Assembly: GCF_028715765.1 (NCBI RefSeq)
Contig: NZ_JAQURE010000005.1
Coordinates: forward strand, 1-64,000
From: Rhodoferax sp.
GTDB lineage: Bacteria; Pseudomonadota; Gammaproteobacteria; Burkholderiales; Burkholderiaceae_C
Reading direction: 5' to 3'
DNA length: 64,000 nt
The notes below the pieces were generated by a model. That model saw nothing but the letters and a program-made list of their open reading frames with translations, searched no databases and had not been told where the DNA came from. This document shows positions 45,151 to 60,390 of this stretch, piece by piece. A program made the position numbers and the translations under genes. Every line of letters begins with the position of its first letter. Position 1 is the first letter of the stretch.

Positions 45151-47877
45151 TCAAGGTTTGAGCAACACCTTCAGCACGTTTTGCACCCGGCGAACTTGCG
45201 CCGCGTCAAACGCTGCAGACCACACGGTGGCGGCGTCTTGCGTCCAGGTTTGCGCCGGTGCGGGGTCGTTGCGCTTGGTCAGCAATTGCAGTTGCAGCAT
45301 GCGCCGCGCGCTCAGGTGCTCAGCCGGGGTGGGCACTTCGGCCGCCATTTCCAGCCGCAACAAGGCCGTGCTGGCATCGCCGCTGGCGGGTTGTGACACG
45401 GCTTTGATCCAGGCGCTGCGCACGCTTGGGTTCACGCGGCTGCCCAATTCTTGGGCGCTGGGTACATGCGTGGCATCGCGTGTTTCCCAGGCCGTCAGCA
45501 ACTGGGTCAAGGCCTCGCCGTGGGCTTGAGCGGCCAGTTTGCGCAGCGCCATTTGTGCTTGCTCCAAGGCATCTCGTTGAGCCCGGAAAGCAGCATCGCC
45601 CAAACGTGGGGCATCGGCACGGTCGCCAAAAGCCGGGCGCTCAAAGCGGCCAAATTCACGCGGTCCACGGGCATCACGTGCACCGTCTCGGGAGCCTGAA
45701 GGTCGGCTGTCTTTGCGGTCGCCAAATTTGCCAGGGCGTCCAGCCACAGCAGGCTCTTCTTTCTTCTGGCCTGGGCGGTCGTCGCCGCGCATGGCCACGA
45801 CACGTTTGGGTGCCGACGCAGGGGCCACCGCAGGGGTGCTGTCAGCCTCGGCGGCGTTGGCCGTAGACGCGTCTGATACGGCCTCAACTGCTTCGTTTTC
45901 AGTAGCTGCTTGCGCAGTATCTGCCTGCGCTACAGCCTTATTTTCTTCTGAAGTGGCAACATCCACCGCAGCTTGCGCCTGGCGCTGACCGCTGAGCGCG
46001 GCATCCAGCGCAGCCATGGCGGTGCGAATGCTTTGGGCGTCGCCGCTGGCGTTGGCCGCTTGCAGGGCTTTGGAGGCTTCCAGCACAATGCGGTCGCGCT
46101 CGCTCAAGGCGCTTTGGGCTTTTTCGCGCTCGGCTGTTTTGCGGTTGAAAGCCTCATCAATCGGCTTGCGGAAGGCATCCCACAGCTTTTGCTCATGGCG
46201 GCGGTCAATCGGCACCCGGTGTGCCTCGGCTTGCCAGCGCTGTTGCAAGGTTTTGACTGCGTCAATGCGCAAATTGACCTCAGCCCCCAGCGCTTTGGCA
46301 TCGTCAATCATGTCGTGACGGGCTTGCAGGCTGAGTTTTTGCAAGGCTTCCAATGGCGCTGCAGCGTGGTCGATGGCAGCCTTCCACAGCGGCTGCAGTT
46401 CGGCAAACATTTTTTCGCCCACATGCCCCGACTCGCGCCAGCGGTCACCAAATTGGTGCAACACGCGGTGAAAGCCTTTCCAGTCGTCATCAAGTGCCAC
46501 CCGGTTGGCTTCGGCCCAGGCCGTGACTTCATCGATCAGCGCCAGCCGTTGGGCGCGGTGTTCGGCAGACTCGGCTTTGACTTTTTCCAGCCAAGCCTCC
46601 ACCACTTTGTGCGCCTCGTTGCAGGCATCGTCAAAGCGTTTCCACAGCGCATGGTTGGGCACACCACCTTGGTCGGTGGTTTTCCATTGCTCGCGCAATT
46701 GGCGCAAGGTGTCTTGCATCTTGCGTCCACCCACGGCTTGACCTTCAGGGCGATTGAGCAGGCCTTGCGCCTTGGCCAACAGTTCTTCGCGCAACTGGTC
46801 GGCACGCCAACGCTGCCAGCCTTCGAGCTCACCCGCAGCGGTCAAGGCGGTGTGCGCCTGGGCTTCGAGTTTGTCGTCAATCAGACGGGCGTTTTCTTTC
46901 AAGGCCTGGCGCAGGGCATTGGCCACGCCAGCCGTTGCCTTGCCATGGCCTTGCGCCATTTCTTGCTCTAATTTAGTGAGCGTTTCACGCACCAAGCTGG
47001 AGGCTTTGGCACGCAATTCAGGGTCAACCTTGGGTTTGGCGGGGGTCACTGGCACTTCAAGGGGAATGCCGCGCGCCACACGCAGTTCATCAGCCCACAC
47101 CGGCACTTGTGGCAGCGGTGCGCTGGCATCCAGGGCGGCTGCCACGGTGAGTTGCAGCGCTTCAGAGAAAGCTTCCCAGACCAGCAGCAGTTGGGCTTGG
47201 GAGTCTTGCAACTGGGGCACAAAACGGGCGTCTACGCTGGGCCAATTGGCATCGCCAGAGAGCGTTTGCGCTTCGCTTTGCCAGTGCGCCACATCGGTGA
47301 CCAAGGCCGCTTGGGCGGCTTGGGCATCGGCCCAGGGTTTGGTGGAAAGCACTTCAATGCGTTGCGCCAGCAGCACCGCAGCTTCACGCTGCACTTGCAC
47401 CCGGTGTTGCAGGTCTTCAATGGCACGCACGCGCTCAACCAATTGGGCTTTGAGTCCAGCCAGCGGCTCTTTGCTCAGCGGTGCGCCAGCTTTGGCGGCA
47501 TCGCGTTGCCAAGCCAGGGCATCGGCTAGGTTGAGTTTGGACAAGGCCAACAGGGCTTGGGCTTTGTCGGCCCATTCGAGCGCAATGGTGGCTTGGGTTT
47601 TGCTGCGTTTGATGTCGTCAAGTTTTTCACGCACCAGTTTGGCGGCACCCTTGTCTTTGACGCTGAGTTCTTTGAACACCTGCTGCAATTGCTCGCCGCT
47701 GGGGCTGCTGGCCAACCACTCGCGAATGCAAGCCATGCGCTCGCCCGAGGTGTGGGCTGAAAACGCGCCATGGGTCAGGGCATCCAGCGGGTGCGCTTCA
47801 TGGCTTTTGGCAGTGACGACGGGCGCGTCAGGGGTGGGGGTGGCTGGCTTGGATTTGGAGAAGGAAAACATCGACAT
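45151..47877 (-). CDS. Large DUF349-repeat protein
   Basis: This 908-residue, strongly helical, Ala/Gln/Lys-rich protein contains several DUF349 repeats (for example WQRWRADQLREELLAKAQ, LREQWKTTDQGGVPNHALWKRFDDACN, DWKGFHRVLHQFGDRWRESGHV and LQQRWQAEAHRVPIDRRHEQKLWDAFR). The function of the family is not established; E. coli members are linked to stress. A Ser/Ala/Thr-rich low-complexity stretch (about 640-760) includes a repeat-derived insert at 45901-45942. It is transcribed alone, convergent with lpxH. Confidence 0.85.
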   Translation of the reverse strand: MSMFSFSKSKPATPTPDAPVVTAKSHEAHPLDALTHGAFSAHTSGERMACIREWLASSPSGEQLQQVFKELSVKDKGAAKLVREKLDDIKRSKTQATIALEWADKAQALLALSKLNLADALAWQRDAAKAGAPLSKEPLAGLKAQLVERVRAIEDLQHRVQVQREAAVLLAQRIEVLSTKPWADAQAAQAALVTDVAHWQSEAQTLSGDANWPSVDARFVPQLQDSQAQLLLVWEAFSEALQLTVAAALDASAPLPQVPVWADELRVARGIPLEVPVTPAKPKVDPELRAKASSLVRETLTKLEQEMAQGHGKATAGVANALRQALKENARLIDDKLEAQAHTALTAAGELEGWQRWRADQLREELLAKAQGLLNRPEGQAVGGRKMQDTLRQLREQWKTTDQGGVPNHALWKRFDDACNEAHKVVEAWLEKVKAESAEHRAQRLALIDEVTAWAEANRVALDDDWKGFHRVLHQFGDRWRESGHVGEKMFAELQPLWKAAIDHAAAPLEALQKLSLQARHDMIDDAKALGAEVNLRIDAVKTLQQRWQAEAHRVPIDRRHEQKLWDAFRKPIDEAFNRKTAEREKAQSALSERDRIVLEASKALQAANASGDAQSIRTAMAALDAALSGQRQAQAAVDVATSEENKAVAQADTAQAATENEAVEAVSDASTANAAEADSTPAVAPASAPKRVVAMRGDDRPGQKKEEPAVAGRPGKFGDRKDSRPSGSRDGARDARGPREFGRFERPAFGDRADAPRLGDAAFRAQRDALEQAQMALRKLAAQAHGEALTQLLTAWETRDATHVPSAQELGSRVNPSVRSAWIKAVSQPASGDASTALLRLEMAAEVPTPAEHLSARRMLQLQLLTKRNDPAPAQTWTQDAATVWSAAFDAAQVRRVQNVLKVLLKP
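45901..45942 (+). repeat. Short palindromic repeat inside the DUF349 gene
   Basis: AGTAGCTGCTTGCGCAGTA then TCTGCCTGCGCTACAGCC resembles the copy in the dehalogenase gene. It is read in frame on the minus strand within a low-complexity linker. Confidence 0.6.
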
Positions 47878-48167
47878 CGCGCACTGAAGTGAAGGGCTAC
47901 CCGCTGTGGAGTGCAGCGGGACGAAAACGTGTATTTTCGCCGGGTTTTTTGCTATTGACTGGAAACGGCGGTAAATAGGGCGCGAATCAAACTGCTGTGG
48001 CAGCGCTGCTGATGCGCGGGCGGCTTATTTTGTTGAGGTTTTATCTGGGTTGGCATGGTTTGAGACTTGTGTTTTGCCGTGGGGGCGTCTCTGGTGCTGG
48101 CTTGGTGTTTTGGCGCGCTGGCTGATGTAGTGCCTCTGGCTTACTACTGCTTTGGTGGCTCTGGCAC

Positions 48168-48300
48168 GGCGCGGCGGATGGGTCAGGTGCGTGCGGTTTT
48201 GGGGGCAAAACACACGCGGGGCTGTGGGTGCAGTTCGCCCAACACCGCTTGCGCGCGCCTTTGTCCCCAAAGCCCGGTCACCTGACCCAACCACCACGCC
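48168..48300 (-). repeat. Long-hairpin element, copy 1 (inverted)
   Basis: Read on the minus strand this 133-bp element starts GGCGTGGTGGTTGGGTCAGG and ends CCTGACCCATCCGCCGCGCC. It aligns with copies 2 and 3, sharing GACCGGGCTTTGGGG, a GCGCGCG run, AGCCCCGCG and CCCAAAACCGCACGC. The arms pair along most of their length, with G-U wobbles only when the minus strand is read as RNA. Confidence 0.8.
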
Positions 48301-48336
48301 TTATCTGTGTGGATATTGCGTTGTCAAATTACCAAA

Positions 48337-48392
48337 ATTCATAGCTATTAACGCTTATTGAATATGGCCTACAGGATTTTTTCTTATAAATC
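48337..48392 (+). repeat. Short palindromic repeat fused to long-hairpin copy 2
   Basis: TTCATAGCTATTAACGCTT followed by ATTGAATATGGCCTACAGG and TTTTTTCTTATAAATC. It is the left part of a 226-bp composite unit (48330-48555) that recurs without gaps at 58454-58679. Confidence 0.75.
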
Positions 48393-48412
48393 TTCGAGTT
48401 CCAACCACGCAA

Positions 48413-48544
48413 GGCAGGGTGATTGGGTTAGGCGACCGGGCTTTGGGGTGAAATGCGCGCGAAAAAGGTATTCGCACACTGAACCGCCAGCCCCGCGCGT
48501 GCTTTCACCTCAAAACCGCACGCGCCTGACCCAGTCGCCCTGCC
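48413..48544 (+). repeat. Long-hairpin element, copy 2
   Basis: This 132-bp imperfect palindrome has left arm GGCAGGGTGATTGGGTTAGG and right arm CCTGACCCAGTCGCCCTGCC. Inner arms are CTTTGGGGTGAAA and TTTCACCTCAAAA, and the loop lies near 48463-48491. With G-U pairs the stem is nearly complete. It has the same length as copy 3. Confidence 0.85.
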
Positions 48545-48611
48545 GGGTTCCACCTTGACTGTCAATCCACCTCAGGCTGGTCATCTCGGCATTGCCGCAG
48601 GTCAGCAGATG

Positions 48612-49217
48612 TCACACAGCCAAGCCAATGCGCTGCAGCAGTTGCGCCGTTTCAAACAAAGGCAATCCCATGATGCCGGAATAGCTGCCGCTCATGTGCG
48701 AAATGTAGGCCGCTGCCCTGCCCTGCACGCCATAAGCGCCGGCTTTGCCCATGGGCTCGCCCGTGGCCACATAGGCCGCCAATTGCGCCGCTGACAGGGG
48801 GGCAAAAGTGACCCGCGAGACCGACACCGTCTGCACCCTTTGATGCCCAGTGCCCAATGCCACTGCCGTCAGCACCCGGTGCGTTCGGCCTGAGAGTCGG
48901 GTCAATAGCTGCACCGCGTCTGCCGCATCAACGGGTTTGCCCAAAATGTCACGCCCCAACGCCACCGTGGTGTCTGAGCACAGCACCGGCGCAGCTGGCA
49001 GCCCCAAACGCTGGCGTCGCGCCAAGGCGGCATCCAGCTTGAGCTGCGTCACCCGCTGCACATAGGCCAACGGGCTTTCGCGCGGCAGCACCACTTCTAG
49101 CGCTTCGGCATCTTCATGCGGCTCAGGCAACAACAGCTGATAAGCCACACCGAGTTGCTCCAGCAACTGTCGACGGCGCGGGCTTTGCGAAGCCAGGTAA
49201 ATGAACATTTTTTTCAT
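48612..49217 (-). CDS. maf: Maf-family nucleoside triphosphate pyrophosphatase
   Basis: The 201-residue protein starts with the Maf signature [18 protein letters not shown] and has [38 protein letters not shown] and [17 protein letters not shown]. The SQSPRR form and the GAYGVQG stretch suggest the YhdE-like dTTP/UTP pyrophosphatase subtype, which removes modified or excess nucleotides. The start may be one or four codons further in (MFIYL). It is the last gene of the yebC-maf operon, 16 bases after rlmH. Confidence 0.93.
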
Positions 49218-49232
49218 GCGTTGGATGTGGCA

Positions 49233-49700
49233 TCACTCGCGGTGGTAGGGGTGGTTGGCATTGATCGACCAGGCGCGGTAAAGCTGCTCAATCAACAACA
49301 CCCGCGCAAAAGCATGCGGCAAGGTCAGGTCTGACAGGCGAATGCGCTCGTGCGCGGCTTGTTTGAACGCTGGGTCCAGCCCGTCTGGCCCGCCAATCAC
49401 CAGCGCCACATCGGTGCCGCCCAGTTGCCAGTCTTTGAGCTTGCCTGCCAGCGCCATGGTGCTGAGGTTGCTGCCGCGTTCGTCAAGTGCCACGATGCGG
49501 CACCCCTTGGGAATGGCGGCTTCAATGCGGCTGCGCTCGGCGGCGAAAAGCGTGTCCAGCGTTTTGGACGCGCGTGGCTCGGTTTTGACGGCTTTGAGTT
49601 CGACCTTGATCTCAAAGGGAAAGCGCTTGGCGTAGTCGTCCCAGGCGGTTTGCGCCCAGTCGGGCACCCGCTGCCCCACGGCCACGATCAACACCCGCAC
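49233..49700 (-). CDS. rlmH: 23S rRNA pseudouridine-1915 N3-methyltransferase
   Basis: This 155-residue SPOUT methyltransferase modifies pseudouridine 1915 in helix 69 of 23S rRNA. The trefoil-knot SAM site is visible in [14 protein letters not shown] and [25 protein letters not shown], with the terminal HPYHRE. The length is exactly that of the family. It lies 2 bases after rsfS, the usual partner. Confidence 0.97.
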
Positions 49701-49702
49701 GG

Positions 49703-50605
49703 CTAGGCTTTGCGGGCGGGGGCTCGTTTGGCTGGTGCCGACTTGGCAGCGACCTTTTTGGCAGCTGGTTTGCCAGGTGCATTCACCACCAGGGTCTTGA
49801 TCCTGGGTTTAGCCACAGATTCAGCATCTTTTAGGCCTGCAGCCCTTTTAGATATTGCGCTGGCAGCTACTTTTTTAGCAGTAGCCGCTTTGGCATCTTG
49901 GACTTTTTTCAATTGAGCTTTGGAGGGGAAGGCTTCTTCAACGCCCTTTTTCGCAGCGCTGGAGCGGCGCAGGCTGGACTCGGGCTTGGCCGCGCGCGAT
50001 GGTTGCGTGGGCGCTGCAGGCAACTTGGCTGCCTTGGCCACCACAGGTTTGGCGGCACCCAGTTTCAGGCGCACCGGCTTGTCGCCCCACAACTCTTCCA
50101 AGTTGTAGTAGGTGCGGATGTTGGGTTGCATCACATGCAGCACGGCCTGACCACAGTCCACAATGATCCATTCGCCATTGGCTTCGCCTTCCATGCGCGG
50201 CTTGGGAAACCCGGCTTCGCGCACGGCATCCATCACACTGGCGGCCAGGGCTTTGGTTTGACGGTTAGAGGTGCCGCTGGCCACAATCACCCGCTCAAAC
50301 AGCGAAGACAGGTGCTCGGTGTCAAACACCATGATGTCTTGGGCTTTGACGTCCTCCAAGCCGTCCACAATGGCGCGCTGCAACTTTTGCACATCTTTTT
50401 TGGCTGCCGTGCTGGTTTCAGGTGCCGCAGCGGCTGGCTTGGCGCGGGGTTTGACCAGCGCTTGAGCGGCTTCGACAGGCGGCTGCGTAGCAGGCTTGAC
50501 AGCTGCTTTCACAGCAGTTTTGGCAGTGGTTTTGACAGCGGCTTTGCGTGCCGGTTTGGACGCAGGCTGGGCGACAGTTTGAGCAGAGTTTTCAGTAGTC
50601 ATCAA
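49703..50605 (-). CDS. rsfS: Ribosome silencing factor with long basic Ala/Lys-rich tails
   Basis: The core (about residues 71-180) is RsfS, which binds L14 on the 50S subunit and blocks subunit joining in starvation: [56 protein letters not shown] and YYNLEELWG. Normal members are about 105-130 residues, but here there are 300. The first 70 residues and the last 120 are rich in Ala, Lys and Pro, like histone H1 tails, and may bind nucleic acid. Part of the C-terminal tail (49831-49870) derives from a short palindromic repeat. It overlaps nadD by 4 nt. Confidence 0.92.
49831..49870 (-). repeat. Short palindromic repeat inside the rsfS tail
   Basis: On the minus strand: GTAGCTGCCAGCGCAATATC then TAAAAGGGCTGCAGGCCTAA, a divergent family member read in frame. 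Confidence 0.55.
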
Positions 50606-51222
50606 TGTGAGTGGTAAAGGTGATGGTCGGCAATATAACGCGCAACGGCCTCAGTGACCAGCCCATCGGCGCTTTGGCCGGCGCCAAGGGTGGCACGAAT
50701 CTGGGTGGCGCTAAGGGGCATGGCGGGCATGTTCAGCTGCAAAAACCGCTCGGGAAACAATTTTTGAGCCTCAAAAACGGTGTGAGCGCTTGTTGAATCT
50801 GCACGAAAAGCTACACATATTGTAGCAAGTTGCACAATCTCTTGCCACTCACGCCAAGTCGTCAGGGCGCTGGCCTGGTCTGCGCCCATGATCAAAAACC
50901 ACTCTACCTGCGGGTACAAACGCCCCAACTCGCGCAAAGTGTCAACGGTATAGCTGACACCGGGGCGGTTGATTTCCAGGTCATCGACCTTGACTTGCGA
51001 CCAAGGTGCAAACGCCAATCGGGCCATGGCCAAGCGGTGTGCGGCAGCTGTCAGGTGGCGCGGTTTGTGCCAGGCTTGCCCGGTGGGTACCACATGCAAC
51101 TGATCGAGTGAGAGCTCGGTGAGGGCACTGGCAACCAAGGCCTGATGCGCCCGATGCGGCGGGTCAAACGCGCCGCCAAACACGCCGATGCGATGCCTTT
51201 TTGTGGAAAGAGGCAAAGTCAT
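50602..51222 (-). CDS. nadD: Nicotinate-nucleotide adenylyltransferase
   Basis: The 206-residue enzyme makes deamido-NAD from nicotinate mononucleotide and ATP. It shows the nucleotidylyltransferase motifs GVFGGAFDPPHRAH (HxxH), WFLIMGADQASALTTWREW and LSATQIRATL. It overlaps rsfS by 4 nt and shares its first base region with the end of the MBOAT gene (1 nt). Residues about 137-147 (FRADSTSAHTV) are encoded by a divergent short palindromic repeat (50783-50813). Confidence 0.96.
   Translation of the reverse strand: MTLPLSTKRHRIGVFGGAFDPPHRAHQALVASALTELSLDQLHVVPTGQAWHKPRHLTAAAHRLAMARLAFAPWSQVKVDDLEINRPGVSYTVDTLRELGRLYPQVEWFLIMGADQASALTTWREWQEIVQLATICVAFRADSTSAHTVFEAQKLFPERFLQLNMPAMPLSATQIRATLGAGQSADGLVTEAVARYIADHHLYHSH
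50783..50813 (-). repeat. Short palindromic repeat inside nadD
   Basis: On the minus strand: TAGCTTTTCGTGCAGATTC then AACAAGCGCTCACA, matching the outer and inner parts of the family consensus. Confidence 0.5.
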
Positions 51223-52781
51223 CAGAATTGGTAGTAAATGAAGGTGCTAATACGGTCGATGTGGCTGATTGAGATCAACATCAGGGCAGCCACAGCCAAG
51301 CCACGTAGTGCCATCACCCAAGAGGTCTTGGCTTGGCTCCAACGCTCGGCAATGCGCTGACTTGAAGGTGCAAACCACACTAACAAGGCACATATCAGCA
51401 ACAAGCGCCCCACCGTACTGGCATTGAAGTCGCGCATGGCAGAGGTCAACTCAAACACGCCTTCAAAACCCACAGGCAGCCCTGCCCACCGAAACAGGGT
51501 GATCAATGACTGCGTGAACCACCCCTGCGTAGGTGAAATAGACAGGCCATTCAACCCCAAGCAGCCCTGAACGATCAACATCGCGCTTGCTAACGAATCT
51601 GCCCTAAAAAACACCCATGCCAACACCACCAGCATGAATGTCAGCAGCACTGACAAGCCTTTCACTAGCCACACCAGCGGCTGTGGAGTGGCAGGAAACT
51701 TCAACCCATTATGCACACCACGCCAGGCATGGTGCAGCACCAAAAACAAACCATGTAAACCACCCCAGATCACAAAAGTCCAGTTGGCACCGTGCCACAG
51801 ACCACCCAGCAACATGGTCAAAGCCAAATTAATTAGTCGCCTGAAAGTACCATGGCGGTTGCCCCCTAAGGGAATGTAAAGATAGTCACGCAAAAACTGC
51901 GACAGTGTCATGTGCCAGCGGCGCCAAAACTCTGAAATGGTTTGAGACTTGTAGGGCGAGGCAAAATTCAGCGGCAACTTCACACCAAACATGCGTGACA
52001 CGCCAATTGCCATGTCAGAGTAGCCTGAGAAATCAAAATAAAGCTGAAAAGTAAATGCCAACGCCGCTGTCCATGCCAATAAAAATTTCGGTGCAACACC
52101 CAGGGTTGCTTGGTCAAACACAGGAGTCACCTGGTTCGCCAAATCGTCAGCCAACATGACTTTTTTAAACAAACCTATGGCAAAAATCAACAAACCAATA
52201 CTTAGATTTTCAAAACTGAAACGGTAAGTTTGAGGGTCTTCAAACTGAGGCATGATTTGTCTATGGTGCAGCACAGGCCCAGCAATCAAATGCGGAAAGT
52301 AAGTGACAAACAGCAGATAGCGCAAAAAATCAAAGTCTTTAGCTTCGCCACGCGAAGAGTCCACTAAAAACGCAATTTGAGTAAATGTAAAAAACGAAAT
52401 ACCCAGCGGTAACACCACCTCTTGCAACACCCATACCTGTCCATCCAAGCTCGCAACGCTACTGATGAAAAAATTCAGGTATTTGAAATACCCAAGCAAC
52501 AGCAAATTAGCCGCCACACCGAACACCAGCCACCGATGTCGTGAGGTTGCCGAAAAAGCACTGGCATCATAAGGAGCCAAGTGCCTTCCTAGCAAAAAAT
52601 TGAACCCAATTGATACAAGCAGCAACAGTAAAAATTCGGGATTCCACCAGCCGTAAAAAAACAGCGATGCAAGGCACAGCCAAGCCGTACTGAGCCTGAC
52701 CGAGGTTTTGGCCAGCGCAAAAAAACCCAACCAAACCAATGGCAAAAAAGCAAAAATAAAAACGTAAGAGTTAAAAATCAT
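51222..52781 (-). CDS. MBOAT-family O-acyltransferase (AlgI-like)
   Basis: This 519-residue multispanning membrane protein is an MBOAT transferase like AlgI, which passes acetyl groups across the inner membrane for polysaccharide O-acetylation. Visible: the N-terminal MIFNSYVFIFAFLPLVWLGF, YFPHLIAGPVLHHRQIMPQF, LYFDFSGYSDMAIG, FWRRWHMTLSQFLRDYLYIPLGGNR and MLLGGLWHGANWTFVIWGG with the catalytic His. It overlaps the SGNH partner gene by 4 nt. The pair interrupts the otherwise conserved hemF-nadD neighbourhood, and its DNA looks somewhat A/T-richer than the flanks. Confidence 0.92.
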   Translation of the reverse strand: MIFNSYVFIFAFLPLVWLGFFALAKTSVRLSTAWLCLASLFFYGWWNPEFLLLLLVSIGFNFLLGRHLAPYDASAFSATSRHRWLVFGVAANLLLLGYFKYLNFFISSVASLDGQVWVLQEVVLPLGISFFTFTQIAFLVDSSRGEAKDFDFLRYLLFVTYFPHLIAGPVLHHRQIMPQFEDPQTYRFSFENLSIGLLIFAIGLFKKVMLADDLANQVTPVFDQATLGVAPKFLLAWTAALAFTFQLYFDFSGYSDMAIGVSRMFGVKLPLNFASPYKSQTISEFWRRWHMTLSQFLRDYLYIPLGGNRHGTFRRLINLALTMLLGGLWHGANWTFVIWGGLHGLFLVLHHAWRGVHNGLKFPATPQPLVWLVKGLSVLLTFMLVVLAWVFFRADSLASAMLIVQGCLGLNGLSISPTQGWFTQSLITLFRWAGLPVGFEGVFELTSAMRDFNASTVGRLLLICALLVWFAPSSQRIAERWSQAKTSWVMALRGLAVAALMLISISHIDRISTFIYYQF

Positions 52782-53830
52782 GGCTGTCTGCTTTGCACAC
52801 CTGCAAACACCCCAGTAGCCACCAGCGCCTGAGCCAATGCACGATGCCCGTTGGGGCCCAAGTGATCATCATTGGGCATGTAAACATCTTTGGCTTTGTA
52901 AATGCTTTTCTTCATGACAGATAACACATCTGGTGCATTCACACCCGCAGCACGCAGACTTTGTGCCAGATCACTGGCTGCGTGGCTGGGCAGAGGATTG
53001 AGCAACTCCTCTTCATAGGCGTGTAACTTATCTGGAACGATCAGCATGGCAAATTGAAAACCCGCCGCTTCAAGCCGGGTTTTCACAGCTTTTAAAGTAG
53101 CAACTGCCAGTTCAATGTCAGCCTGTGTCCATTGCAACCGGTATTCATCCACGTCGGCATACAGCAGGCGGTTAGACTGAATATTAGAGAACAAATCACC
53201 CCGCTTAAGTGGTGCACTCTTCACCCATTCGCCTGCCACTTTGCCTGGTTGTGCAGCCACTTGCGCCATGTGCATCAGTGTTTGAAATTGACGGGCAATG
53301 TCAATTTGGGTATGCACTGAGCTGGTGGGCCAATGCCACACGCCTTGTCCAATGGGACGCACGCGAAACAGCGAGTCTGCCGCACAGCGCTCGGGATATC
53401 GAATACGTTCCATAAACTGATGCTCAATCGACTCAATCATCACCAACCGATTACCGGCTTTTGCATACCCTTCCAAGCCACTGGCCAGACGCTCAATCCA
53501 GGGCAAAAAACAATTGTTGTTGTCTTTGTAGTTGTATGTTTTAAATCGCAAACCCGTCTTCGACGCCACCACCGACTGCCAAACATTACCAACCGAGAAC
53601 GAATCACCCATCACCAGCACATCAGCCACTTGTATGGTGTTGTCATTGGCCATGACCTCAATGCCCTCAGGGGTGAGCTGCTGGACGTAATCACGCTCAG
53701 GCCAGGCGCCTCGACGAGAGATCCCGCCAATGGGTGGACCAAAATAAAGTGAGGCCGGGTAGGCTATCGCCATCACTACAATCAACGGCACAAAAGCCGC
53801 CACAAACATCACCCGAAACGGTTGACTCAT
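52778..53830 (-). CDS. SGNH/AlgX-AlgJ-like O-acetyltransferase partner
   Basis: The 350-residue protein has an N-terminal membrane anchor (residues about 5-28) and a periplasmic SGNH-type domain: nucleophile Ser in VLVMGDSFSVGN, and the Asp-His pair in MPNDDHLGPNGHRALAQAL. It resembles AlgJ/AlgX, which finish the transfer of acetyl groups from an MBOAT protein to polysaccharide. It overlaps the MBOAT gene by 4 nt. The polysaccharide target is not in this window. It starts 22 bases after hemF. Confidence 0.85.
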   Translation of the reverse strand: MSQPFRVMFVAAFVPLIVVMAIAYPASLYFGPPIGGISRRGAWPERDYVQQLTPEGIEVMANDNTIQVADVLVMGDSFSVGNVWQSVVASKTGLRFKTYNYKDNNNCFLPWIERLASGLEGYAKAGNRLVMIESIEHQFMERIRYPERCAADSLFRVRPIGQGVWHWPTSSVHTQIDIARQFQTLMHMAQVAAQPGKVAGEWVKSAPLKRGDLFSNIQSNRLLYADVDEYRLQWTQADIELAVATLKAVKTRLEAAGFQFAMLIVPDKLHAYEEELLNPLPSHAASDLAQSLRAAGVNAPDVLSVMKKSIYKAKDVYMPNDDHLGPNGHRALAQALVATGVFAGVQSRQP

Positions 53831-53851
53831 ACCTGTTATGAGCGAGCAGAG

Positions 53852-54775
53852 TTACACCCAGTCCCGAGGAACCAGATAGGTGCGGTACAGCTCGGCCTCA
53901 GGTGTGCCAGCCTCTGGCACTTGCTGGTAGGCCCAGCTCACCAGCGGCGGCATGGACAGCAAAATAGATTCCGAGCGCCCGCCGGACTGCAGCCCAAAAT
54001 GCGTGCCCCGATCCCAAACCAGGTTGAACTCCACATAGCGGCCACGCCGGTAGAGCTGAAAAGCACGTTCGCGCTCGCCATAAGGCGTGTCTTTGCGGCG
54101 CAACACAATGGGCAAGTAAGCGTCAAGAAACGCATTGCCCACGGCCTGCATCATGGCCTGGCTTTGCGCTTGCCCCAGCTCTGAGAAATCATCAAAAAAA
54201 ACGCCGCCCACGCCGCGCTGCTCGTTGCGGTGCTTGAGGAAAAAATACGTGTCGCACCAGGTTTTGAAGCGCGGGTATTTGTCGTCGCCAAAGGGCTGCA
54301 AAGCCGTTTTGCAGGTTTGGTGGAAATGCACGGCATCGGCTTCAAAGCCATAGTAAGGCGTCAAGTCCATGCCGCCGCCAAACCAGCAGACCTCGCGCCC
54401 GTCGGGTGCCGTGGCGGAAATCATGCGCACATTCATGTGAACGGTAGGCACGTAGGGGTTGCGCGGGTGAAACACCAGCGACACGCCCATGGCCTCAAAC
54501 GGCGCACCCGCCAGCTCCGGGCGGTGCTGTGTGGCTGATGGCGGCAGCTTGGGGCCCGTCACATGCGAAAACCCGCACCCGGCGCGCTCAAACAGGGGAC
54601 CACCTTCCAGAATTTGAGTGATGCCGAGGCCTTGCAGCGGCTCACCGGCCGGTTTTTCCCAGGCATCGGTCAAAAACGGCGTGCCATCGAGCTCAGTCAC
54701 GGCGGTGGTGATGCGCGCTTGCAGCCCCTTCAAATACGCGCTGACATCTTGCGCTGCAGTGGCTGTGCTGCTCAT
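53852..54775 (-). CDS. hemF: Oxygen-dependent coproporphyrinogen III oxidase
   Basis: The 307-residue enzyme makes two oxidative decarboxylations of coproporphyrinogen III with O2 in heme synthesis. Family landmarks are [32 protein letters not shown] (split around the metal-site His), [19 protein letters not shown] and [19 protein letters not shown]. The length is normal. The start overlaps the purD stop by 4 nt, so the two are translationally coupled. Its presence shows an aerobic or facultative lifestyle. Confidence 0.97.
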
Positions 54776-56073
54776 GCAGCGGCACCCTTGACAGCGCGGT
54801 AACCAATGTCGGTGCGGTATTGCATGCCGTCGAAGTGAATGCCTGCGGCCACTTCATAGGCGCGCTGTTGCGCCAGCCGCACACTGTCGGCCAGCACCGT
54901 GACGCACAACACACGCCCGCCAGAAGTCAGCACATCAGCGTCTTGCAGCGTGGTGCCCGCATGGAACACACAAGCGTCTTCCGTTTCTTTGGGGATGCCG
55001 GTGATGGCATCGCCCTTGCGCGGGTTGGCCGGGTAGCCGTGGGCAGCCAGCACCACACCCAGCGCGGTGCGACGATCCCATTGCAGTTCAATTTGATCCA
55101 GCTTGCCATGCGCGCCGGGCTCGGTGGCGGCCAGCATCACATCAACCAGGTCGGTTTTCAGCCGCATCATGATGGGCTGGGTTTCGGGGTCGCCCATGCG
55201 GCAATTGAATTCAAGGGTTTTGGGCTTGCCTTGGGCGTCGATCATCAACCCGGCGTACAAAAAGCCGGTGAACGGAATGCCGTCTTTTTCCATGCCGCGC
55301 ACGGTGGGAAGGATGATGTCGCGCATGGCGCGGGCATGCACATCGGGGGTGACCACGGGCGCGGGAGAATAGGCGCCCATGCCGCCGGTGTTGGGGCCCA
55401 AGTCACCGGTTTGCAGGCGTTTGTGGTCTTGGCTGGTGGCCAGTGGCAACACGTTTTTGCCGTCCACCATGACGATGAAGCTGGCTTCTTCGCCCTGTAA
55501 AAACTCTTCAATGACAACGCGAGCACCGCCTTGGTTGTGGCTCACGCCCAAGGTGTTGTCCAGCAGCATGAAGTCAACCGCCTCATGCGCCTCGGCCAGT
55601 GTCATGGCCACCACCACACCCTTGCCGGCGGCCAGGCCGTCGGCCTTGACCACAATGGGCGCGCCTTTTTGGTCGATGTAAGCATGCGCCAGCACCGGGT
55701 CTGAAAACGTGTCGTACTCCGCGGTGGGAATGCCATGGCGTTTCATGAAGGCTTTGGAAAACGCCTTGGAGCTTTCCAATTGCGCCGCGGCTTGGGTCGG
55801 GCCAAAAATGCGCAGGCCATGCTTGCGGAAAATGTCCACCACGCCAGCGGCCAAAGGCACTTCGGGGCCGACCACGGTGAGGGCAATTTTTTGATCTGCC
55901 GCCCACAAGGCCAAGGCCTGCACATCGCTGCCGGGCACGTTCTCAAAACGCGGATCGGTGGCGGTGCCACCGTTGCCGGGGGCGACATAGATTTTGTGGG
56001 TTTTGGGTGATTGCGACAGCTTCCAGGCCAGCGCATGTTCACGGCCACCGCCGCCAATGACGAGGATTTTCAT
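54772..56073 (-). CDS. purD: Phosphoribosylamine-glycine ligase
   Basis: This 433-residue ATP-grasp enzyme makes glycinamide ribonucleotide in purine synthesis. Landmarks: [95 protein letters not shown] (read in two parts) and [15 protein letters not shown]. The length is normal. It overlaps yebC and hemF by 4 nt on each side. Confidence 0.97.
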
Positions 56074-56804
56074 AAGTCTTCGGTGTCGAGTTCAGCGTTG
56101 TGATAGACCTCTTGCACATCGTCAAGGTCTTCAATGGCATCAAGCAGTTTTTGCATGCGGGCGGCATCGTCACCGGTGACTTCGATGGGGTTTTCGGCGC
56201 GCATGGTCACTTGGGCATCGTCAGGGGTCAGGCCAGCGGCTTCCAGGGCATTTTTGACGGCTTCAAAGTCGGCCACCGAGGTGATGACTTCGATGGCGCC
56301 ATCGTCATCGGTCACCACGTCGTCGGCTCCGGACTCCAATGCGATTTCCATCACCTTGTCTTCGCTTTGACCCGGAGCAAAAATGATTTGGCCACAGTGT
56401 TTGAACTGGAACGCCACCGAGCCTTCGGTGCCCATGTTGCCGCCAAACTTGGCAAACGCGTGGCGCACTTCAGCCACAGTGCGCACCTTGTTGTCGGTCA
56501 TGGTGTCAACAATGATGGCGGCGCCGCCAATGCCATAGCCTTCGTAGCGGATTTCTTCGTAGGTGATGCCCTCCACACTGCCGGTGGCCTTGTCAATGTT
56601 GTACTTGACGCGATCGGCGGGCATGTTGGCGGCCTTGGCGCGGTCTACGGCCAAACGCAGGCGCGGGTTGGTTGACAAATCGCCACCCCCGGCGCGCGCC
56701 GCCACCGTGATTTCACGGATGATGCGGGTCCAAATTTTTCCGCGCTTTTCGTCTTGACGGCCTTTGCGGTGCTGAATATTGGCCCATTTGCTGTGTCCTG
56801 CCAC
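56070..56804 (-). CDS. yebC: YebC/PmpR-family protein
   Basis: The 244-residue protein has the full YebC signature: [28 protein letters not shown] at the start (read as its first 28 residues), then [38 protein letters not shown] and [19 protein letters not shown]. Family members act as transcription regulators, and recent work ties some to translation of proline stretches. It is the first gene of the long minus-strand operon, and its promoter lies in the 58 bases before the divergent HerA-like gene. Confidence 0.95.
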
Positions 56805-56862
56805 GTGAAATCCTTTAAAAATTCGTTACGCTACTGATCCGATTGTACTTTTTGAGGTTGAC

Positions 56863-58380
56863 ATGCCCGAACCCATTTTGATAGCCCAACATGGCCAAAC
56901 CCAATGCCTGTTGCACCCTGACAAGGCCAACCGGCATGGCCTGATCACCGGCGCCACCGGCACCGGCAAAACCATCACCTTGCAAACCATGGCCGAGGGG
57001 TTTTCCAAGCTGGGCGTGCCGGTGTTCATGGCCGACATCAAGGGCGACCTCACCGGTCTCTCGCAGGCCGGCAGCTCTACGCCTAAACTGGCCAAAGTGC
57101 TTACTGAACGTGCGCTACCTGCTCCTGAATACGCAGCATTTCCAACCACCTTGTGGGACGTGTTTGGCGAACAAGGCCACCCGGTGCGCGCCACCGTGAG
57201 CGACCTCGGGCCACTGCTGCTGGCGCGCATGCTCAACCTCAACGACACCCAGGCGGGCGTGCTGCAACTGGTGTTCAAAATTGCCGACGATGCCGGTTTG
57301 CTGATTCTTGACATGAAAGACCTGCGCGCCATGTGCCAGCATGTGGGTGACAACGCATCCACCTTCACCACCGAGTACGGCAACATCAGCGCCGCCAGCA
57401 TTGGCGCCATTCAGCGCGGATTGATGCAAATTGAAAGTCAGGGCGGCGACAAATTTTTTGGCGAGCCAATGCTCAACATCGCTGATTTGATGCAAACCGA
57501 TGGCACCGGGCGCGGCATGATCAACATTTTGGCGGCTGACAAACTGATGGCCTCACCCCGCCTGTACAGCACCTTTTTGCTGTGGATGCTGAGCGAGCTG
57601 TTTGAAAACCTGCCCGAGGTAGGCGACCTGGATAAACCCAAACTGGTGTTCTTTTTTGACGAGGCTCACCTGTTGTTTGCCGATGCCCCCAAAGTACTGG
57701 TTGAGCGCATTGAGCTGGTGGTGCGGCTGGTGCGCTCCAAAGGCGTGGGCGTGTATTTTGTGACGCAAAACCCGCTTGACATCCCCGACACGGTGCTGGC
57801 GCAGTTGGGCAACCGGGTGCAGCACGCCCTGCGCGCCTTCACGCCGCGTGACCAAAAAGCCGTGAAAAGCGCCGCCGATACCATGCGCCCCAACCCTGGG
57901 CTGGACGTGGGTGCAGCCATCACCGAACTGGCCGTGGGCGAAGCGTTGGTGAGTTTTCTGGACGAAAAAGGTCGTCCCAGCCCGACCGAGCGGGTTTACG
58001 TGCTGCCACCGGCAGGGCAAATTGGCCCGATCAGCGCGGCGCAGCGCCAAACCCTGCTGACCGAGTCGATCGTGGCTGGGGTTTATGAGAAAACGCTAGA
58101 CCGTGAGTCGGCCTATGAAAAAATCAAAGGCCGCACAGCCACCGCCACGGCACCAGCCAACCAGCCCGGCGTGGCCAGCCGTGACGCAGCCCCGGCAGAC
58201 TCGGGCGGCTTGCTCGACAGCCTGGGTGCCGGGCTGGGCAACTTGCTGGGCGGGGGCAGTGGCAGGCGCACCAGCGCCGGTGAGCAGTTGTTCAAAAGTG
58301 CCGCCAGCTCGATTGGCCGAGAAGTAGGTCGCCAGATCATTCGCGGCGTGTTGGGTGGTATTTTTGGCGGAAAACGCTAG
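56863..58380 (+). CDS. HerA-like P-loop ATPase (DUF853/YjgR family)
   Basis: The 505-residue protein has Walker A G30-A-T-G-T-G-K-T and ADIKGDLTGLSQAG nearby, a Walker B LVFFFDEAHLLF near residues 260-270, and GVYFVTQNPLDIPDTVLAQLGNRVQHALR, all typical of the HerA/FtsK-related YjgR family. The C-terminus has a Gly/Ser-rich tail (GLGNLLGGGSG) and ends IIRGVLGGIFGGKR, as in YjgR. The biochemical role is not established. It is followed by a repeat-rich gap. Confidence 0.9.
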   Translation: MPEPILIAQHGQTQCLLHPDKANRHGLITGATGTGKTITLQTMAEGFSKLGVPVFMADIKGDLTGLSQAGSSTPKLAKVLTERALPAPEYAAFPTTLWDVFGEQGHPVRATVSDLGPLLLARMLNLNDTQAGVLQLVFKIADDAGLLILDMKDLRAMCQHVGDNASTFTTEYGNISAASIGAIQRGLMQIESQGGDKFFGEPMLNIADLMQTDGTGRGMINILAADKLMASPRLYSTFLLWMLSELFENLPEVGDLDKPKLVFFFDEAHLLFADAPKVLVERIELVVRLVRSKGVGVYFVTQNPLDIPDTVLAQLGNRVQHALRAFTPRDQKAVKSAADTMRPNPGLDVGAAITELAVGEALVSFLDEKGRPSPTERVYVLPPAGQIGPISAAQRQTLLTESIVAGVYEKTLDRESAYEKIKGRTATATAPANQPGVASRDAAPADSGGLLDSLGAGLGNLLGGGSGRRTSAGEQLFKSAASSIGREVGRQIIRGVLGGIFGGKR

Positions 58381-58460
58381 TCCAGTCTGCGTCAGTTGCT
58401 CTCAAAAGTAAAGCTAACACCGCTCTAGGAAAAGCTGAGAAATCCGTCTTTTTTACCAAA

Positions 58461-58512
58461 ATTCATAGCTGCTAACGCTTATTTAACCTGGGCTACAGGC
58501 TGTTTTCTTATA
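58461..58512 (+). repeat. Short palindromic repeat fused to long-hairpin copy 3
   Basis: ATTCATAGCTGCTAACGCTT followed by ATTTAACCTGGGCTACAGGC and TGTTTTCTTATAAATC. It is the same arrangement as at 48337. Confidence 0.75.
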
Positions 58513-58536
58513 AATCATCGAGTCCAAACCATGTGA

Positions 58537-58668
58537 GGCAGGGTGATTGGGTCAGGGGACCGGGCTTTGGGGTGAAATGCGCGCGAAAGAGGTTTTCGCT
58601 AACTGAACCGCTAGCCCCGCGCGTGCTTTCACCCCAAAACCGCACGCCCCTGACCCAGTCGCCCTGCT
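58537..58668 (+). repeat. Long-hairpin element, copy 3
   Basis: This 132-bp element has left arm GGCAGGGTGATTGGGTCAGG and right arm CCTGACCCAGTCGCCCTGCT. The inner arms CTTTGGGGTGAAA and TTTCACCCCAAAA pair perfectly, and a possible inner stem GGTT/AACC closes the loop. It is the best-paired copy and lies 156 bases after the HerA-like stop. Confidence 0.85.
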
Positions 58669-58732
58669 GGGTTCCACCTCAAGCACCCCGACTGAACACA
58701 CCATCCAAAGCGCTTTGTCTAAACCCAAGTGC

Positions 58733-59311
58733 TCAGCGCAAGTGTTTGAACATCTTGGCTTTGAAGCTCTCGGGCACACCCAAGCGCCGCTGGCCGGGGA
58801 TCAGCTCAAACGTCTCACCAGCCTGCAGCGTGCCAGGCTCGTCTACCGCCAGGTAAAAACCACAACACCCCTGCAGCGCCATCAGCTTGGCAGCCAGGCC
58901 AAAGCCCATGGCCGCATTGAATTTGTAGCAGGGCTCGCGCGGCTGCGTGACGCGCAAGGCGCAATGGGCAAAACGCAGCACGTCGCCCACCCAGACATCG
59001 GTTTCCAACACGCCTGCCAGGCTCAGGTTTTCACCCATGCTGCCCCAAGGCAATGCGTCGTCGATGTCGCCAAGCCCCGCTTTTGCCCGCGCCTCACGCC
59101 AAAAAGGGTAGTGCTCGCTGGGGTAGGCATACACCGCCTTGTCCAGCCCGCCATGCACCGACAAATCGGCCTGCTCGTCGCCCATCAGCCCCAGCGGCAA
59201 CACCGGCACGGGGTCGGCCACGGCCTGTTTGTGGATGGCGGTGAGCACGCTGCGGCCATGAATCATGGCGCGGCGTGCGGGAGCGGTTTGCAGGCTGAGC
59301 AGGTGTGGCAT
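58733..59311 (-). CDS. MOSC-domain protein (YiiM-like)
   Basis: The 192-residue protein is a stand-alone MOSC domain. It has the characteristic VHGGLDKAVYAYPSEHYPFW, GSMGENLSLAGV and the conserved Cys of TQPREPCYKF. MOSC proteins use the molybdenum cofactor to reduce N-hydroxylated compounds or carry sulfur. E. coli YiiM confers resistance to 6-N-hydroxylaminopurine. I start at ATG 59311 with GGGAG upstream; an in-frame TTG at 59320 is possible. Later in the window a ModA-like binding protein could supply molybdate, but this link is speculative. Confidence 0.88.
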   Translation of the reverse strand: MPHLLSLQTAPARRAMIHGRSVLTAIHKQAVADPVPVLPLGLMGDEQADLSVHGGLDKAVYAYPSEHYPFWREARAKAGLGDIDDALPWGSMGENLSLAGVLETDVWVGDVLRFAHCALRVTQPREPCYKFNAAMGFGLAAKLMALQGCCGFYLAVDEPGTLQAGETFELIPGQRRLGVPESFKAKMFKHLR

Positions 59312-59478
59312 GGTGATCAACTCCCAAAGAAAAGGACAAGAAAAAAATGAGGCGACCCTCTTGTACTTAAAACGTCATCGGATCAATCCGTCAAAAAAAC
59401 AACCCGTCCAGATTGTCCACGCACCACCGCCTCAAGGCCAAGGCATACTTGATTCCCTGACGCCGAAGGAAACCCGCC

Positions 59479-60390
59479 ATGCTTGCCCGCTTTTTACGCT
59501 TTGCCTACCTGTTCCAGTTCTTGACCGGCACACTTCTGGGCACGTGGGGTGCCATGAATTTGGCTGCCGACTGGGGGGGCTGGGCTTTGGCCCTGGTGCT
59601 GTTGGGTGGCGTGGGTTGGATTTTGGTATGGCAAGCGCTGGGGATTGGCTGGACCATGTGGAGAGCGCGGGTGCATGGGGCTGGCTGGCTGAACGCGGTG
59701 TGGGGCGAATTTGTCGCGGCGGTGCAAGTTTTTGCCCTGCGCCAGCCCTGGGTCACGCGCAACCCTGGCCTTTTGCTGCCCACCAAGCCGCCTGCGCCGG
59801 GTCAAGCCGCGCTGCCCGTGCTGCTGGTGCACGGTTTCATTTGCAACCACCGGTTGTGGGACAAAGTGGCGCCCGCGCTGCGCCAGGCCGGACACCCGGT
59901 GTTGGCGGTGGATCTGGAGCCACTGTTCACCTCGATTGACGATTACGCCCCCTTGATTGAGCACGCGGGGCAACAGCTGCGCCAGCAAACCGGCGCCCAC
60001 CAAGTGGTGCTGGTGGGGCACAGCATGGGTGGCTTGGTGCTGCGCGCCTGGCTGCGCACCTATGGCGCCAACCACGTGGCACGCTTGATCACCCTGGGCA
60101 CCCCGCACCAGGGTACGCAAACGCCGCAATGGGTCAGCACCCCCAATGGCCAACAAATGGCCTGGCACAGCCCCTGGCTGGCACAGCTTGCCGCCAGCGA
60201 AACACCGGCCAAGCGCCAACTCATGCGCCTAGCCTACACGCAGCACGACAACGTAGTCTTTCCCCAGCAAGCCCAACTGCTCGATGGCGCGCCTGTCACC
60301 GTTTTTCAAGGCATGGGGCATGTGCAAATGTGTCTGGACGACAGCGTGATCCGCTGGCTGCTGCAACAAGCCCGTGACGCTAATCAGTAA
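59479..60390 (+). CDS. Membrane-anchored alpha/beta hydrolase (lipase-like)
   Basis: The 303-residue protein has two N-terminal membrane helices (about residues 10-28 and 35-58) and an alpha/beta-hydrolase domain: oxyanion region VLLVHGFICNHRLWD, nucleophile elbow GHSMGG (Ser), LITLGTPHQGTQ, the acid probably in the segment near residue 255, and the catalytic His in GMGHVQM. It resembles LipA/PGAP1-type triacylglycerol lipases or acetyltransferases with a similar fold. The substrate is unknown. It is transcribed alone or with the chromate genes, which begin 79 bases later. Confidence 0.82.
   Translation: MLARFLRFAYLFQFLTGTLLGTWGAMNLAADWGGWALALVLLGGVGWILVWQALGIGWTMWRARVHGAGWLNAVWGEFVAAVQVFALRQPWVTRNPGLLLPTKPPAPGQAALPVLLVHGFICNHRLWDKVAPALRQAGHPVLAVDLEPLFTSIDDYAPLIEHAGQQLRQQTGAHQVVLVGHSMGGLVLRAWLRTYGANHVARLITLGTPHQGTQTPQWVSTPNGQQMAWHSPWLAQLAASETPAKRQLMRLAYTQHDNVVFPQQAQLLDGAPVTVFQGMGHVQMCLDDSVIRWLLQQARDANQ

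Follow-up and report, generated by a model that had tools for sequence, protein, structure and literature searches.

The long hairpins in the stretch of Rhodoferax sp. DNA analysed here (64,000 nucleotides at its full length, hereafter the window) are part of a mobile repeat family of Rhodoferax-type genomes, which folds on one strand and is a variant of the known hairpin type of MITE, with ISKra4-like ends. Pairing within the hairpin is maintained by compensatory change across 134 copies, and several species share one hairpin copy at a fixed position between cysD and cysN. Many bacterial repeats have been called hairpins from one sequence; here, the number of copies, together with a single old insertion that became fixed, reveals selection for the folding of one given strand after insertion.

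An earlier reading of this DNA from its letters alone (the sequence-only reading) had described three palindromes in the window. All three are present at the positions and on the strands given there, with a length of 132-133 bp, and each of these imperfect palindromes is predicted to fold as one long hairpin (-85.2, -83.5 and -88.8 kcal/mol for copies 1, 2 and 3, respectively). The proposed three-copy unit is thus real but incomplete: copies 1 and 2 form one composite (48168-48544) with outward-facing halves, copy 3 is a solo half, and the genome holds 38 near full-length copies. The features of the window are as follows.

47978..48000, plus strand: terminal-repeat-like sequence on the left of the composite (GGGCGCGAATCAAACTGCTGTGG), differing from the family repeat at 4 of 23 positions and separated from hairpin B by 190 bp
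48001..48167, plus strand: region to the left of hairpin B, which closes with the degenerate repeat unit ...GCTTTGGTGGCTCTGGCAC (from the flanks of 25 own-genome loci)
48168..48300, minus strand: hairpin of type B (copy 1)
48301..48412, plus strand: spacer between both hairpins, beginning with TTATCTGTGTGG and including a separate dispersed AT-rich repeat that ends in ...TTTTCTTATAAAT
48413..48544, plus strand: hairpin of type A (copy 2), divergent to hairpin B
48545..48556, plus strand: conserved GGGTTCCACCTT directly 3' of hairpin A; GGGTT... follows type A in most listed copies
58453..58531, plus strand: segment matching positions 29-107 of the window-composite spacer at 86% identity, located 5' of the solo hairpin
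58537..58668, plus strand: solo hairpin of type A (copy 3), with no type B partner adjoining

The degenerate unit GCTTTGGTGGCTCTGGCAC stands before hairpin B in many copies. The AT-rich repeat of the spacer has 31 own-genome matches at E<=1, several of them distant from hairpins, and sites of this repeat that lack a hairpin include C31:25466, C23:19944 and C23:34791. For the window composite a right terminal repeat was not found (the best candidate has 10 mismatches), a target duplication was looked for at the window copies and not found, and no long ORF lies within the composite. A search of window positions 47500-59500 with Rfam 15 returned three matches, all far under the gathering score. 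Both hairpin sites lie at synteny breaks (window 48612-49217 and 56863-58380), and the maf gene and the gene preceding copy 3 have other neighbours in the relatives examined. Because other genes follow in these relatives, an empty-site test at the window loci is uninformative.

Copy 3 as a query against its own genome (3.41 Mb, 112 contigs) yielded 72 matches at E<=10, which after removal of self-overlapping and reverse matches correspond to 38 near full-length hairpins and two broken ones in 25 groups; the fragments C8:14-307 and C9:52058-52128 are outside the count of 38. Fifteen of the 25 groups consist of one B and one A hairpin, 112-177 bp apart, with B invariably in minus and A in plus orientation relative to the unit. 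Four other groups comprise B, the spacer and just the final ~14 bp of A, and two have a single hairpin with a B-type left flank and an A-type right flank. Neighbouring hairpins are divergent in 34 of 35 cases. At L063:14-307 (C8 of the same genome) a type B hairpin is interrupted by a 161-bp insertion with inverted ends of its own (GGGCTTGTAAAGTAATAAC / GTTATTGCTTTACAAGCCC), which is another small mobile element.

Several features identify the hairpin elements as MITE-like. Many hairpins are enclosed by the inverted terminal repeats GGGTGCGATTCAAAGTGATGTGG and by 9-bp target duplications, the elements typically being about 330-690 bp in size. When up to 8 of 23 mismatches were allowed, 49 of 100 hairpin loci showed the terminal repeat (GGGTGCGATTCAAA...) on their left and 42 on their right, compared with 5 and 2 in the reversed-sequence control. 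Both repeats are present in 25 of the 100 loci, while in 75 the repeat was not detected at one or both sides; none of the 10 cys copies in this survey has both ends. A 9-bp duplication matching at 8 or 9 of 9 positions accompanies 10 of the 25 two-ended loci and is lacking in the other 15 (mismatched-flank control: mean 0.02, maximum 1). Among single-hairpin loci, the 3' terminal repeat was located in 26 of 66, within 79 bp in 23 of these, and the 5' terminal repeat in 15 of 66, at a distance of 147-307 bp in 14; the 3' side of the hairpin therefore faces the near end of the element at these loci. Mobility is also apparent beside mnmG, where the composite is present in its own genome with a gap of 657 bp and the element is absent in 15 relatives that have the same gene pair 70-151 bp apart; at another 12 loci no left gene was detected. 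The same intergenic region has been hit twice, once by the composite and once, in L237, by a different insertion: a hairpin-free element of 368 bp (L237:561-928) with the terminal repeats GGGTGCGATTCAAA and a perfect 9-bp duplication GTTTCAGCG. A mini-element of 87 bp with the same terminal repeats resides at L016:1129-1215 (C24 of the genome under study), inside a degenerate array beside hairpin B, and is flanked by the near-duplication AGTGGCTCT/GGTGGCTCT.

An insertion sequence of the same genome (C1:118933-120353, corresponding to L312:1434-2854) has ends that match the terminal repeats of the hairpin elements. Its terminal repeat is GGGTGYGATTCAAACTGATGTG and its target duplication is about 9 bp (GCACAAGGC/GCACAAGGA). 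An ORF of this IS matches the ISKra4 transposase model (NCBIfam NF033572) with an E value of 1e-53 over profile positions 122-422, at 183 bits, which is under the NCBIfam cut-off of 205; the coding region consists of two ORFs of 140 and 315 aa. Based on these ends, we infer that the elements spread by an ISKra4-type transposase acting in trans. The IS itself is without a hairpin, and the hairpin is thus not required for the IS's own transposition. Further copies of related IS ends are located at the contig ends C20, C69 and C55, as expected for a recent multicopy IS. Through ends and target duplications, the repeat family is tied to a particular IS family.

The sequence-only reading had listed a transposase-dependent REP-type element among its options. 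Dependence on a transposase does seem to apply; however, the ISKra4-type ends and 9-bp duplications are not those of a RAYT/REP system. Mobilisation as REP/BIME or REPIN by a RAYT (Y1 HUH) transposase would account for imperfect palindromes in an inverted, intergenic arrangement, and one Y1_Tnp gene is present in the genome. Yet such a gene occurs in 53 of 60 genus genomes regardless of hairpin detection, none of 30 Y1 loci has a hairpin within about 1.5 kb on either side, the 132-bp unit exceeds the 20-40 bp expected of a REP unit with a GTAG or CGTC tag, and the terminal repeats and duplications indicate another transposase. We have rejected this candidate, and consider it highly improbable.

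The pairing of the hairpin was analysed in an alignment of 37 own-genome copies (A1), from which B_C88_2913 was left out due to its truncated outer end. Standard pairs make up 98.1% of 1627 pair cells, compared with a mean of 92.6% in shuffled alignments (none of 500 shuffles equals the observed value), and shifting the partner by 1-3 columns lowers pairing to 30-49%. Both sides have changed in 10 of 44 stem pairs, and the covariation score was matched by 0 of 500 shuffles. The pair cited in the sequence-only reading (columns 21:114) indeed has the states T-A, C-G and G-C in copies 1, 2 and 3, respectively; over all 37 copies it is T-A in 20, G-C in 10, C-G in 4, T-G in 2 and unpaired in 1. 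Similarly, the outer arms of copy 1 differ in their letters with pairing preserved, as had been noted. The statement that G-U pairs are restricted to one strand is not exact: the window copies have 13 G-U pairs on the stated strand, but the A-C mismatch of copy 1 at 37:97 reads as G-U on the opposite strand, and copy 1 has in addition one T-T mismatch.

Covariation over many copies, which had been proposed as a check, was confirmed in a wider set to which related genomes were added (135 model matches, 134 distinct). Against a tree-based null of 60 simulated alignments, in which the number of substitutions per column was preserved, 3 of 8,256 column pairs reached E<0.05, each of them a pair of the stem; the stem pairs ranking next have E values of 0.07, 0.22, 0.65, 0.80 and 1.1 over all column pairs. 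No significant pair remained when partners were slid by 1-4 columns. At least five substitutions on both sides were counted in 12 of the 44 stem pairs. Most copies from other genomes were retrieved with a 28-base motif of the 5' arm that had to match exactly, and the invariance of that segment is therefore to some extent a product of the search; the motif covers hardly any of the outer helix.

The 134 distinct copies have 640 G-U and 32 A-C pairs on one strand, with G-U in excess at 28 pairs and A-C in excess at 3. At three pairs G-U is fixed or close to fixation (123, 115 and 134 of 134 copies), and with these excluded the ratio is 268:32. As parsimony events, changes from a Watson-Crick pair to G-U number 123 and those to A-C 26, and the excess is seen on terminal (90:21) and internal branches (33:5); in unpaired columns, C to T and G to A account for 121 and 90 events, respectively. 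In the same split by branches, paired sites are 3.5 and 5.5 times slower to change than unpaired ones. Covariation and G-U excess are both present, and therefore one strand is selected to pair.

It might be argued that the fold is under no selection, and that recent copying of a palindrome, with compensation arising from hairpin-templated mutation or gene conversion, has produced the pattern. The copies share an origin, and there are signs of recombination in some spacers and hairpins: between the C17 locus (L014) and its orthologue L169, which represent two species, the stems are identical (0 of 88 differences in both hairpins) and the flanks 97-98% similar, and the spacers are clearly different, a pattern suggestive of exchange between copies by recombination or gene conversion. 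Templated correction would nevertheless erase G-U pairs, yet two of these are nearly fixed and one is invariant; G-U events exceed A-C events by about 5:1, the tree-based null is exceeded by stem pairs only, and stems and loops contrast among orthologues at one locus. We thus regard an origin without selection as very unlikely.

This locus is the hairpin at C5:71532-71664, which resides 7.5 kb past the window between the genes for CysD and CysN. Judged by similarity of the flanking genes, it has orthologues in at least 9 other loci. Of the cysN loci fetched, 8 of 30 contain a full-length and 1 of 30 a partial hairpin; among 25 loci with both genes placed, cysD and cysN are 3-4 bp apart in 7, one locus has a distance of -45 by extrapolation, and the others reach up to 569 bp. 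Retrieval of the eight full-length orthologues relied on cysN, without use of the hairpin motif. Their mean pairwise identity is 91.5% in the stems, 87.6% in the outer helix and 67.2% in unpaired positions, with 42 G-U pairs vs 1 A-C, and the cysN genes of the other seven are 78-81% identical to the gene of the genome under study, which was the sole reference. In a set of 14 cys orthologues the covariation score lies above that of 500 of 500 shuffles; three pairs have changed on both sides, a number reached by 13 of 500 shuffles. The long retention of the insertion with its fold intact suggests that the folded strand does something. Thus, the old question of whether a MITE hairpin benefits the cell is now directly testable, for example at cysD-cysN. 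At several cysD-cysN copies, alignment A4 contains a second long imperfect palindrome (GCAGCGCGCATTGGGTATC... TCAGACACCCAACGCACGCTGC) 5' of the hairpin.

One function that might be considered is that of a cis-acting mRNA hairpin for host genes, tuning stability or coupling, e.g. of cysD versus cysN. The copy kept between two genes that are 3-4 bp apart in 7 of 25 relatives is in line with such a role, for which there is precedent in ERIC and NEMIS as far as these are described in the parts of PMC2229807 consulted. However, the folding strand is antisense to the cys operon, while a role of this kind would call for a fold in the sense strand of the mRNA; of 24 single hairpins in tandem contexts, 12 are likewise antisense, and only 8 of 30 cysN loci have the full-length hairpin. 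A cis-acting role is accordingly unlikely. The 3' UTR structure that had been offered as an option is also weakened, because the sense strand lies with the genes in 12 and against them in 12 of the 24 tandem contexts. In this count, which relies on gene calls by a simple hexamer score, 20 of 70 single loci were skipped (calls missing or overlapping) and 7 cys copies were left out.

RNA is the most probable nature of the folded strand. The sequence-only reading had proposed a selected folded RNA; its one-strand fold stands, as covariation and the G-U excess (640:32 overall, 42:1 at cys) indicate, but its assignment to RNA is less secure, as there is no clear promoter signal and single-stranded DNA fits as well. 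For a dedicated sigma-70 promoter, no clear signal was seen upstream of the sense strand: mean sigma-70-like scores are 3.60 upstream of sense, 3.66 of antisense and 3.73 of shuffled sequence, and scores above 5 occur in 20 vs 15 of 126 for sense and antisense. The folded molecule might instead be single-stranded DNA at the element ends, recognised by a protein during replication, transfer or transposition. The counts of G-U and A-C do not separate the two, as strand-specific tolerance of G-T is equally expected of a DNA hairpin; the position of hairpins near element ends in a fixed orientation, the 12:12 orientation to genes and the lack of a clear promoter signal are also in agreement with DNA. 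What speaks against it is that ISKra4 is a DDE-type IS family and does not use a single-strand (HUH) transposase: the likely helper is assigned to this family, and its C1 copy is without such a hairpin. In addition, a transposition role leaves continuing selection at the fixed cys locus unexplained. Taken together, we consider folded DNA unlikely.

On balance, we favour, with moderate confidence, a MITE-like element spread in ISKra4 fashion, whose subterminal outward hairpins fold as an RNA landing structure. The hairpins would be modules that lie just inside the ends of a non-autonomous transposable element in Rhodoferax-type bacteria and face outward, and an ISKra4-type transposase provided in trans would have spread it. 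Transcription outward through the element would deliver the folded strand as RNA, and each outward transcript would end near the end of the element in a hairpin of ~45 bp with invariant asymmetric internal loops. This hairpin may serve as a landing structure for a protein or an RNase-III-type enzyme that terminates, processes or stabilises the transcript, as has been reported for ERIC and NEMIS in other bacteria. Some insertions, notably that at cysD-cysN, were long retained with an intact fold. It might also be speculated that the hairpin represents a genuine RNA gene for which ISKra4-type MITEs serve as carriers, acting in trans or scaffolding a protein, with the host keeping the syntenic cysD-cysN copy while mobile copies spread; this we hold to be rather unlikely.

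RNA landing structures in mobile repeats would not be without parallel. The parts of PMC2229807 consulted describe ERIC/IRU, Correia/NEMIS and RUP as bacterial MITEs with long-hairpin transcripts and report that hairpin-forming bacterial MITEs can affect mRNA stability; orientation matters for this effect in ERIC, an element of 127 bp. Like these, as described there, the present elements are small, apparently non-coding, multicopy and mostly intergenic, with terminal repeats, target duplication and a strong hairpin in the transcript, which is predicted in our case. Unlike these, and with ERIC compared by its description, they have ISKra4-like ends, 9-bp duplications and a structure backed by covariation, and the hairpin is a separate 132-nt module and not the terminal repeat; it lies 45-80 bp inside the element end in most measured cases, and often two divergent hairpins are present per element. 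The terminal repeat and the target duplication of about 9 bp are shared with the ISKra4-family IS (NCBIfam NF033572) copy of the same genome; unlike the IS, the hairpin elements appear to carry no transposase, and the IS carries no hairpin. REP, BIME and REPIN sequences are likewise intergenic palindromes of alternating orientation (PMC3116915, PMC2817692, PMC3733652, each in the parts consulted); they measure 20-40 bp, in contrast to the 132-bp unit with other ends described here, of which none is near the RAYT genes of the 30 loci examined. BRE, an intergenic repeat of Bordetella, Polaromonas and Rhodoferax ferrireducens (4 copies), is 75-91 bp long and often arranged in head-to-tail arrays, a description in the consulted parts of PMC3110155 which differs from that of the hairpin family. 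Compensatory changes in intergenic repeats have been reported for Borrelia plasmids in the portion of PMC2674063 consulted. In the literature searched we found no published description of this hairpin family; many subscription papers are outside that search.

In a draw of 60 genomes, a match was obtained in 17 of 36 genomes of the genus and in 0 of 24 from other families. A family-wide draw with strict filters (E<=1e-5) gave a match in 4 of 299 genomes, belonging to two genera, and two further members of the genus were without a match; since 11 candidates were scored per genome, the family-wide counts are lower bounds. The reverse-strand hits of one model search were discarded. A plasmid or phage origin was considered and rejected, as blastn with the 132-bp query gave no match in plasmids or phages, and IMG/VR has no match to one exact hairpin pattern. 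The core motif occurs in 71 stretches, which are assigned to Rhodoferax, Comamonadaceae, Polaromonas and unspecified MAGs; R. antarcticus ANT.BR, Rhodoferax sp. BLA1 and U2-2l are among the strains whose records contain copies. In Polaromonas records and in the second genus of the family-wide draw, which is probably Polaromonas, the hairpins (L163, L128, L215, L218 and L222) measure 158-175 bp and have a longer apical part, which in L163 and L128 bears an extra inverted repeat.
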